DNA from: Bacteroidota bacterium | GTDB taxonomy: Bacteria; Bacteroidota; Ignavibacteria; Ignavibacteriales; Ignavibacteriaceae | NCBI GenBank assembly: GCA_022564295.1 | Contig: JADFLR010000025.1 | Coordinates: 1-62,001, forward strand | DNA: 62,001 nt | Direction of reading: 5' to 3' | Shown here: positions 4,833 through 62,001 of the stretch, one piece after another | Layout: the number at the start of each line of letters is the position of its first letter | Position numbering within the stretch: position 1 is the first letter of the stretch | Program-made: the position numbers and the translations under genes | The notes under the pieces: generated by a model | What the model saw: only the letters and a program-made list of their open reading frames with translations | The model's database searches: none | What the model was told of the DNA's origin: nothing

Positions 4833-5060
4833 ATGGAGAAAAACACAAAACTTGTTATTACCATTGTTCTGCTAATCCTGGCTGCTGTAATAATTTTTCA
4901 GAATACAGCTCCCGTAAATTTAAAAATATTATTTTGGAGCTTTCAGGCATCGCTTATTATTTTATTAATTCTCGTTTTAATAATCGGAATAATTATAGGT
5001 TATGTTCTTCCGAAAATTATAGGAGAATCAAAAACAAAGAATTCAGGGGAAAACAGCTAA
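4833..5060 (+). CDS. LapA-like (DUF1049) small membrane protein
   Basis: A 75-residue protein with two membrane helices (about residues 7-22 and 36-60) separated by the short QNTAPVNLKILFW loop, which is the hallmark of the LapA/DUF1049 family. In enterobacteria the family member LapA works with LapB in controlling lipopolysaccharide assembly. LapB is not present here, so the same role is only inferred. The gene lies 12 bp after mscS and is probably cotranscribed. A hairpin with a T-run lies about 90 bp downstream and could end this transcript. Confidence 0.7.
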   Translation: MEKNTKLVITIVLLILAAVIIFQNTAPVNLKILFWSFQASLIILLILVLIIGIIIGYVLPKIIGESKTKNSGENS

Positions 5061-58731: not shown

Positions 58732-58791
58732 GGAGTTATTACTTCTAATATCCCAAATCGTTAATCGATATTCTTAATTTAAATTTTGAGA

Positions 58792-59145
58792 ATGAGATTT
58801 TCTGACACATTAAACTACAGCCCGGAAATTGAATTTGATATGTACGAGCCGATAAAGTTTTCATTATTCCAAAATTATTCAAATCCATTCAACCCATCAA
58901 CAACAATAAAATTTGCTTTACCCGAAAAAACTGATTTGGTAATTGCTGTTTATAATTCTCTTGGAGAAAAGGTTGCTGAAGCATTTAAAGGTGAACTTGA
59001 GGAAGGATATCACGAAGTTGTGTTTTCCGCCATAGGCGGATCCGCCTCCGGCGGAAATGCATCTTCTCTTCCATCGGGTGTTTACTTTTACAGATTTGAA
59101 AGTCAGTCGTTTACTGCTGTGAAGAAAATGATAATCATGAAATAA
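58792..59145 (+). pseudogene. orphan T9SS type A sorting domain fragment
   Basis: About 117 codons encode only the C-terminal sorting domain of a type IX-secreted protein: YSNPFNPSTTIKFALPE, VYNSLGEKV, then LPSGVYFYRFE and a basic end. There is no signal peptide or passenger domain, so it is probably the tail of a lost gene. A ten-codon palindromic insertion (59026-59055) interrupts it in frame. A terminator follows at 59170. Starts exist at ATG 58792 and TTG 58786, but neither has a clear ribosome site. Confidence 0.55.
59026..59055. repeat. double palindrome inserted in frame in the sorting domain
   Basis: Two adjacent hairpin units, each TCCGCC–3 nt–GGCGGA (loops ATA and TCC), make a 30-bp GC-rich element in an AT-rich gene. 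It adds exactly ten codons (encoding I-G-G-S-A-S-G-G-like residues) between VVFSA and the LPSGVYFYR motif, where other sorting domains usually have only one or two residues. It looks like a REP/BIME-type element. No second copy is seen in the window. Confidence 0.7.
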
Positions 59146-59581: not shown

Positions 59582-62001
59582 ATGAAAAATATATTTTCTA
59601 AAATTAGCTTACTAAATATAATTGGGCTTCTCTCAATTCTTTTATTTACGGATTATACCTTTGCTCAAAATCCCGGGAATGCATTAGATTTTGATGGAAG
59701 TAATGATTATATATCAGTTCCTGACGCCACAGCATTAGATATTACAAACCAAATAACAATAGAGGCGTGGTTTAAACCCTCCTCGAGTTCCTGGGCATAT
59801 AAAAAGTTAATAACAATAGACTTTACCAAAGTTTCCGCTACGCTGACTGATTTCCCGGTATTAGTATCTGTAACGGATGCAGATTTGAAGGATTCCGAAA
59901 ATGGTGGACCGATACAACCGGATGGAGATGATATATTATTTATACAGACTGATGGAACAAAATTATCACACGAGATAGAAAAGTATGACGGCTCGACAGG
60001 TCAATTAGTAGCGTGGGTAAAGATACCGTCGTTATCGTCAAGTACAGATACAGAGTTTGGTCTGTATTACGGCAATTCAAGTTGTTCATCACAGCAGGAT
60101 GCAACAAATGTTTGGGATGCTAATTACAAGGGCGTTTGGCATCTAGGGGAGAGTTCGGGATTAAGGTTTGATAGCACCATCAATGATAATGATTTATCCG
60201 AATCCGGCACAGTTTCTTATTCAAGTAACGGAAAATTTGTTGGTGCGGCTGATTTCGAAGTCACTGATGAAGGGTCGCTCGTTATTGCAGATAATGTAAG
60301 TCTGAGCATCACCGGCAATTTGACCATTTCGGGCTGGACAAAACTGGAAAGCTTACCTTCAGTGGTGGGTGATCAGATGGGCATCGCGTCGAAGTGGGAA
60401 AGTGGTAACTTGTCGTACGATCTTTACATCGATGACGGTCCAGAGAATGGTGCCGACAATGTTGGCAGATTCAAGCTAACTGATAACAACAGCAGTCACC
60501 GTGATGCTGATGGTGACACTGAACTGTCGGCTGCTACCTGGTATTACCTGACCGCAGTTTACAATAGTACCGACCAACGGGTATACTTGAATGGGTCTTT
60601 CGATGCTAGCGGTGACAATCCCTCAAGTCACTCCACCGGAATATATGATGGGGCATCGCAGTTCAGCATCGGCCGCCAAAGCAGTAATGCAAACGAGATG
60701 GATGGCCTGATAGACGAAGTCCGCATCTCCAACACCGCCCGGGATTCAAGCTGGATTGGAACGGAATACAGAAACCAAAACTCTCCCGGCACGTTTATGA
60801 GTTTCAGCAACCAGACTGCTGCAACCGTTAGTAAATCTGGTGCCTACGGCATTAGTACCAATAACTTAAAAGCTTATGGTACAATAAATAACCAGAGTGT
60901 TTCCGGCAGTATTACCGCCAGTGAGTGGAATCACATCTGCTTAACCTACAATAAGGACGCAGGCGGTACGGATGAAATGAAACTCTATATCAACGGAACG
61001 CAGAGTGCAACAGGAGATTATTCGACGGCAATATCAACAAACAACAATAATCTGCTGCTTGGAGATATGGTAGGATTATTAGGAAAGATGGATGAAATAA
61101 GGATATGGAATGACGTAAGGACACAGCAGGAGATAAGAGAGAATATGCATAGAATAGTAACGCCGGGATCAGAGACAAATTTAGTAGCTTACTGGAAGTT
61201 AAACCAAAGCTCGGGAACTTCAGCTCCGGATTCGAAGGGAAGTAACACGGGAACACTATTCAATATGACTGATGGTGATTGGGCAGCATCGACTGCACCC
61301 TTTGGAGGGGGAATAGCGAACAGCACAACAAGTTTCACAAGCGGAACTGCAAACTTGGGTACGTTTTCGTTAACAACAACAAATTCATTTGATAACCCGG
61401 TAGACATAACCTCAACTGAGATATTGAACGCACCGAACATACTGCCATCAATAGCAAATCCATTAGATGACCGATACTGGGTAGTAGATGTATTTGGAAC
61501 ACCCGGCACATATACAGCAAATTTAACATTCACATTGCCATCGGGATACCTGGACTTAGGTGATGAAGCAAACCTGAATTTATATAACCGGAGCGGCAAT
61601 AATGACGGTAGCTGGACATTGTTGATAAGCGGTGCAGCGAGTATGACATCAACAACTGTAACATTTAATGGAGTGAGCACATTAGGACAATTCACAATAG
61701 GCAGCAGCGGTTCACCGTTACCTGTTGAGCTGGTAAGCTTTACTGGAAAAGTGAAGGATCAGAAAGTATATCTTAAATGGAGTACAGCAACGGAAGTTAA
61801 TAATTATGGATTTGATGTAGAAAGAAAAGTAAGCAGTAAGCAGTTGGCAGTAGGCAATTGGGAGAAGATTGGGTTTGTTGAGGGACACGGTAACAGTAAC
61901 TCACAAAAAGAATATAGTTTTACAGATGCTGAAGTAAATTCTTCAGGAATATATTATTACAGATTAAAACAAATTGATAATGACGGTGCATATGAATTCT
62001 C
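59582..62001 (+). CDS. large secreted LamG/DUF2341 surface protein, partial (runs off window)
   Basis: The frame from ATG 59582 is open without a stop to the window end (806 codons). A signal peptide ends near TFAQ (about residue 29). A LamG/concanavalin-like domain starts (NALDFDGSNDYISVPDA, TIEAWFKPSSSSW, to residue 71), is interrupted by a DUF2341 domain and a second LamG domain (72-415), then resumes (VSKSGAYGISTNNLKAYGT … WNHICLTY … LLGKMDEIRIW). Residues ~535-700 look like a surface beta domain; LPVELVSFTGK near 710 and KWSTATEVNNYGFDVER precede what is normally a T9SS sorting domain beyond the window. Function: probable carbohydrate or surface adhesion. Confidence 0.85.
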   Translation, partial: MKNIFSKISLLNIIGLLSILLFTDYTFAQNPGNALDFDGSNDYISVPDATALDITNQITIEAWFKPSSSSWAYKKLITIDFTKVSATLTDFPVLVSVTDADLKDSENGGPIQPDGDDILFIQTDGTKLSHEIEKYDGSTGQLVAWVKIPSLSSSTDTEFGLYYGNSSCSSQQDATNVWDANYKGVWHLGESSGLRFDSTINDNDLSESGTVSYSSNGKFVGAADFEVTDEGSLVIADNVSLSITGNLTISGWTKLESLPSVVGDQMGIASKWESGNLSYDLYIDDGPENGADNVGRFKLTDNNSSHRDADGDTELSAATWYYLTAVYNSTDQRVYLNGSFDASGDNPSSHSTGIYDGASQFSIGRQSSNANEMDGLIDEVRISNTARDSSWIGTEYRNQNSPGTFMSFSNQTAATVSKSGAYGISTNNLKAYGTINNQSVSGSITASEWNHICLTYNKDAGGTDEMKLYINGTQSATGDYSTAISTNNNNLLLGDMVGLLGKMDEIRIWNDVRTQQEIRENMHRIVTPGSETNLVAYWKLNQSSGTSAPDSKGSNTGTLFNMTDGDWAASTAPFGGGIANSTTSFTSGTANLGTFSLTTTNSFDNPVDITSTEILNAPNILPSIANPLDDRYWVVDVFGTPGTYTANLTFTLPSGYLDLGDEANLNLYNRSGNNDGSWTLLISGAASMTSTTVTFNGVSTLGQFTIGSSGSPLPVELVSFTGKVKDQKVYLKWSTATEVNNYGFDVERKVSSKQLAVGNWEKIGFVEGHGNSNSQKEYSFTDAEVNSSGIYYYRLKQIDNDGAYEF

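Follow-up and report, generated by a model that had tools for sequence, protein, structure and literature searches.

Domain insertion, in which one domain interrupts another in frame to give the order A1-B-A2 (PMC13114784), has been put at 20% of multidomain proteins, and the inserted domains were usually smaller than their hosts, with a median of 115 versus 199 residues (PMC13114784). The surface-protein gene described here, found at the end of the 62001-base stretch of DNA that was analysed (hereafter named the window), is likewise a case of one domain interrupting another in frame. However, it differs from the usual nested insertion in that the host and part of the insert share a fold (LamG in LamG), and in that the insert consists of two domains, is longer than its host and contains an inner domain that appears to have been replaced later. 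The other inserted domain belongs to the DUF2341 family, whose members have been linked to type IV pili and ExbB/MotA-like channels in three papers (PMC4858521, PMC12505986 and PMC11809585). In these papers, an adhesin role was proposed for DUF2341 proteins by analogy with PilY (PMC4858521), adhesion was noted for very large proteins (PMC11809585), and LamG and DUF2341 proteins were often discussed as adhesins (PMC4858521, PMC11809585). Unlike the pili- and channel-linked proteins, the DUF2341 domain of the window gene lies inside a LamG domain of a protein that is most likely secreted by the type IX system. The open-access literature searched yielded nothing that combines DUF2341 with LamG, and nothing on LamG shuffling.

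The window is the whole of contig C15, whose end truncates the gene: the frame runs from 59582 to the last base without a stop codon. The features that define the gene are:

59582–62001, + strand: surface-protein gene, incomplete at the contig end, an open frame of 806 codons
59582–59668, + strand: probable signal peptide, approximately residues 1–29, a hydrophobic N-terminus read by eye
61875–62001, + strand: terminal overlap of 127 bases with the start of contig C23, 100% identity

Bases 1–127 of C23 open a 139-codon frame that shares its first 41 codons with the last 41 of the window gene and runs on to a stop codon. Exact terminal overlaps of this kind are typical of graph assemblers. The two contigs can probably be joined, and the whole gene would then probably have approximately 904 codons. 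Since the C23 continuation holds a Por_Secre_tail domain (PF18962; 41.9 bits, cut-off 27), the predicted product is most likely a surface protein secreted by the type IX system; the same domain was found in a paralogue on contig C42 (36.9 bits). A 119-codon frame just upstream (58786–59145) resembles, by eye, a type IX sorting domain lacking a passenger. The first 64 bases of the window gene (59582–59645) match the start of a gene at C13:176941 with 88% identity; the passenger of that gene is different, which hints that signal peptides may be shuffled too.

Pfam analysis of the window protein found Laminin_G_3 (PF13385) in three stretches together with DUF2341. A second LamG profile was built from relatives, and the outer LamG parts given below are placed on it.

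59675–59797, + strand: N-terminal part of the outer LamG, residues 32–72, profile positions 1–41, 46.0 bits
59795–60823, + strand: in-frame insert of 343 codons, residues 72–414, comprising DUF2341, the LamG of the cassette and a short linker
59921–60118, + strand: DUF2341 (PF10102), positions 1–66 of 84, 50.0–50.8 bits (cut-off 23.4)
60281–60757, + strand: inner LamG, Laminin_G_3 positions 7–150, 73.9–74.3 bits (residues 232–396 on the relatives' profile)
60794–61258, + strand: C-terminal part of the outer LamG, residues 405–559, profile positions 44–200, 127.3 bits

The two outer pieces are complementary on one profile, as a nested insertion predicts, and the clear return to the outer LamG is at residue 415 (base 60824). 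When searched alone against Laminin_G_3, residues 28–71 matched positions 1–31 with 26.7 bits, slightly below the cut-off of 27.6, and residues 415–575 matched positions 65–150 with 63.6 bits. Joined, the outer halves gave a single stretch covering positions 1–150 of 151 with 84.9 bits (E 8.5e-24). The initial annotation had read this gene as a DUF2341-LamG cassette of approximately 344 codons nested in frame in another LamG; the profile matches confirmed that residues 72–414 comprise a DUF2341 domain followed by a complete LamG, both enclosed by another LamG, and corrected the length by one codon.

Residues 28–575 were also modelled using AlphaFold2 with an alignment of nine rows, eight of them cassettes; two other alignments, in which viral LamG rows were set on the inner LamG or N-halves were misplaced, were not used. 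The mean pLDDT was 62.6, with DUF2341 partly good and the outer halves too poor to reveal a pairing between them. In a pdb search, residues 151–376 of the model aligned with ConA-like sandwiches at Z scores of about 16–17. The matches were mostly such sandwiches lying on the inner LamG, headed by clostridial neurotoxin-type binding regions and a GH43 arabinanase, and they are read as a resemblance of the modelled fold only, with no sign of function.

The initial annotation had named an uninterrupted LamG homologue joining residue 71 to residue 415 as support for an insertion. With the joined outer LamG as the query, 24 of 28 related loci (17 genomes) aligned straight across the join, giving 31 continuous spans, a span being counted if it reached at least from joined position 12 to joined position 160; the other four loci fell short, and the 28 were not drawn at random but were the best matches from a search over 59 genomes. 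The nearest match in architecture came from a genome of the same genus (G002), where a single alignment of 470 columns (37% identity) starts in the outer LamG, crosses the join and ends at the window end. DUF2341 was detected at none of the 28 loci. The insert is lacking in the uninterrupted relatives, which are treated as homologues rather than as orthologues, and is present in the C42 paralogue. Neither of the results named as arguing against an insertion was found, namely outer halves belonging to different domains or homologues that all share the nested arrangement with uniform base composition. With residues 58–195 as the query, eight of the 164 genomes of the order gave a match, the gene's own genome among them; the five others of its genus gave none.

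The paralogue lies well inside a 98-kb contig, and comparison of its DNA with that of the window gene gave 90% identity over bases 1–563 and 91% over bases 1132–2420, with nothing matching between.

C42:37018–39708: paralogue of 896 residues with the same nested arrangement
60140–60712, + strand: exchanged tract, GC-rich and unlike the C42 paralogue, 39% identity inside and 90% outside

A two-breakpoint likelihood fit placed the borders of this tract at codons 187 and 377, with a gain of 301 log units. Between the two proteins DUF2341 is 87% identical, whereas the inner LamG core is only 31% identical; the latter value rises to 41% if counted to the conserved end of the domain, compared with 26–40% between either inner LamG and those of 27 other cassettes. 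Of the fourfold sites, 10–23% differ between the copies in the larger blocks of flanking sequence, against 53% (10 of 19 sites) in the inner tract. The comparison of identities kept 36 alignments, reduced to 27 cassettes once duplicates had been removed; rows that left much of the cassette uncovered were dropped, among them the DUF2341 loci of the gene's own order, in seven of eight of which no LamG was found. In the DUF2341 tree the window and C42 copies were sisters (support 100/96, end branches of 0.07–0.08). In the best tree of the inner LamG they were not, and their branches were 1.40 and 1.46 long; this tree was weakly resolved, with 20% of bootstrap trees joining both inner LamGs and the long branches leaving their placement unsure. 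Since the nested insertion is common to both copies, it is older than the duplication, and the differences at flanking fourfold sites show that the duplication is itself not very fresh. On the sequence evidence, the history has at least two steps, an insertion before the duplication, followed in at least one copy by replacement of the inner LamG; the replacement fell after the duplication, in one or both copies. Ahead of NWEKIGFVEG the paralogues also differ in a short stretch, SSKQLAVG as opposed to IPDQVRNDNR (window 61832–61862; L004:6236–6270), possibly small inserted repeats; the patterns tested for the two stretches occurred in the window once (61841) and not at all, respectively.

Base composition was compared with a background of 794 windows, each 190 codons long, taken from 29 other frames on the contig. 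The inner LamG of the window copy (GC 0.48, GC3 0.495) lay above all of them, the maxima being 0.426 for GC and 0.389 for GC3, and that of C42 was more extreme still, with a GC3 of 0.722 against a local mean of 0.286. The DUF2341 half was not unusual in the window copy (GC 0.397, GC3 0.33) and in C42 lay slightly above the background maximum (0.426 for both GC and GC3). The outer C-half, with a GC of 0.429 in one copy and 0.427 in the other, was also slightly over that maximum. This complicates a simple picture, indicating that the gene is raised more widely and that the inner LamG is its extreme part. LamG domains are not GC-rich by nature, since six others in the genome have GC3 values of 0.22–0.29. 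Two further LamGs of the genome, however, are GC-rich too. One, with a GC3 of 0.51, belongs to a 400-residue protein (L150:3233–4435, G000:C13, − strand) with an apparent type IX sorting tail, judged by eye; the other, with a GC3 of 0.61, is part of a frame of approximately 1864 codons (L151, G000:C53, − strand) with one in-frame TGA within the LamG (approximately 4860–4900), which may reflect a broken gene or a sequence error.

These results bear on the earlier proposals of a GC-rich region from about 60160 between AT-rich flanks and of a recent foreign acquisition, possibly in two steps. The GC-rich region was recovered as the fitted tract at 60140–60712, although the outer C-half is slightly raised as well. 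Foreign origin holds for composition within that tract only: because the insertion is older than the duplication and only the inner LamG is compositionally foreign, the whole insert is not a single recent acquisition. The guess of two steps gained support, with an old, shared insertion coming first and the inner LamG being replaced afterwards.

The pair DUF2341-LamG also occurs, in that order and with the same motifs at its start and end, in other bacteria and in viral contigs, showing that the cassette is a known two-domain unit. Within the phylum, 25 of 395 genomes, sampled from a larger group, matched the window cassette, the gene's own genome included, with 30–44% identity once its own copies were set aside. 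Four named genome records, from candidate phyla and Mycoplasmatota, matched with 43–48% identity over DUF2341 in a search with six 8-residue patterns, a narrow net. Three viral contigs and 11 plasmid records matched the cassette, the latter all with at most 28% identity, and no phage record did. Proteins at four of the distant plasmid matches (H1, H4, H5 and H7) are annotated as members of the MotA/TolQ/ExbB proton channel family. The cassettes found elsewhere (L076–L079, L081–L099, L112 and L114) resemble that of the window in domain order and boundary motifs. They differ in being un-nested: at none of the 42 DUF2341 loci checked did complementary LamG halves flank the cassette, although several of these loci duplicate one another and most extend only approximately 1.5 kb to each side.

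The phage, plasmid, viral and named-genome records were considered as sources of a donor, and none was convincing. The retrieved LamGs share 26–40% identity with either inner LamG, so that no close donor was identified among them, and with GC3 values of 0.20–0.59 in their LamG part, none of the 36 retrieved cassettes attains the 0.72 of C42. In C42 the codons of the motif NVWD.NY.GVWHL already mostly end in G or C and differ from those of the window mainly by silent changes. At this one border, the GC-ending codons suggest that the donor to C42 may itself have been a DUF2341-LamG gene recombining at the motif.

Could the mosaic be false, produced by joining reads of different strains or paralogues in one or both copies? 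The window copy does stop at a contig end in repeat-like sequence, and genes with LamG domains and secretion tails are multi-copy in this genome (45 protein matches and 14 LamG matches). However, the two copies sit in different neighbourhoods, C42 deep in its contig, both have an open frame, and both flanks differ by approximately 10% throughout with no switch to identity on one side; moreover, the completeness of the genome is rated at 100% and its contamination at 0.24%. We therefore regard an assembly artefact as unlikely. A reading without nesting, in which an N-terminal LamG remnant precedes an ordinary DUF2341-LamG-LamG string whose last LamG has no start, could draw on the sub-threshold score of residues 28–71 and on the Pfam match of the last LamG, which extends back into the linker (positions 23–150). 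It is somewhat less likely again, since it calls for two complementary truncations, a less simple scenario, and leaves aside the exact fit of positions 1–41 and 44–200, the gain in score of the joined sequence as one domain and the same-genus homologue whose alignment crosses the join and continues to the end.

It might also be supposed that nothing was replaced and that a single inherited inner LamG diverged very fast in both paralogues. Surface domains can evolve quickly, and the LamG tree is compatible with a common origin, but fast divergence would hardly take identity from 90% to 39% at sharp borders or give the copies such unlike third-position composition (0.495 and 0.722), and the core identity of 31% falls within the 26–40% shared with relatives from other families and phyla, a range that includes the conserved end. 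We consider this very improbable. Least probable of all is that the two copies belong to an active cassette-switching system fed by silent copies of the inner LamG: their long near-identical flanks could recombine, but the assembled genome has two DUF2341 matches and no third copy, and among 45 matches residues 188–382 were matched elsewhere by C42 only.

Taken together, the sharp breakpoints and the composition argue for replacement of the inner LamG within a nested gene. As the profiles and the uninterrupted homologues show, a complete DUF2341-LamG cassette opened an outer LamG, a ConA-like sandwich, in frame between the strands EAWFKPSSSSW and TVSKSGAYGIS. A duplication within the genome then gave the C42 paralogue with the same arrangement. 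Afterwards at least one of the copies had its inner LamG swapped for one from a GC-richer source, perhaps through crossovers at the conserved bounding motifs NVWD.NY.GVWHL and DE.RIS. The outer LamG may serve as a stalk or platform that displays the DUF2341-LamG module, with the inner LamG as the exchangeable binding face of an adhesin. Insertion, duplication, replacement of the inner LamG and adhesin display, taken as one account, are in our judgement probable. The inner LamG would bind a ligand, and its replacement would change the target. A bolder extension seems doubtful to us, albeit conceivable: the nested position would be a standing exchange slot with the two motifs as its borders, where foreign DUF2341-LamG genes repeatedly replace the inner LamG and the outer LamG protects fold and display, the inner domains of both copies having been acquired independently.

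Insertion and domain replacement are both processes of known kinds, of which the window gene is a clear example; a LamG in a LamG with a replaced inner domain is new as far as the open-access literature searched shows. The steps of a domain insertion are usually too old to see, whereas in this case the sequences record each of them: the form without the insert, the form with it and the later replacement. Should binding specificity be set by the inner LamG, the bacterium could retarget a surface protein while leaving its secretion tail and scaffold undisturbed, and the two natural variants, in the window and on C42, make this idea of specificity exchange directly testable.
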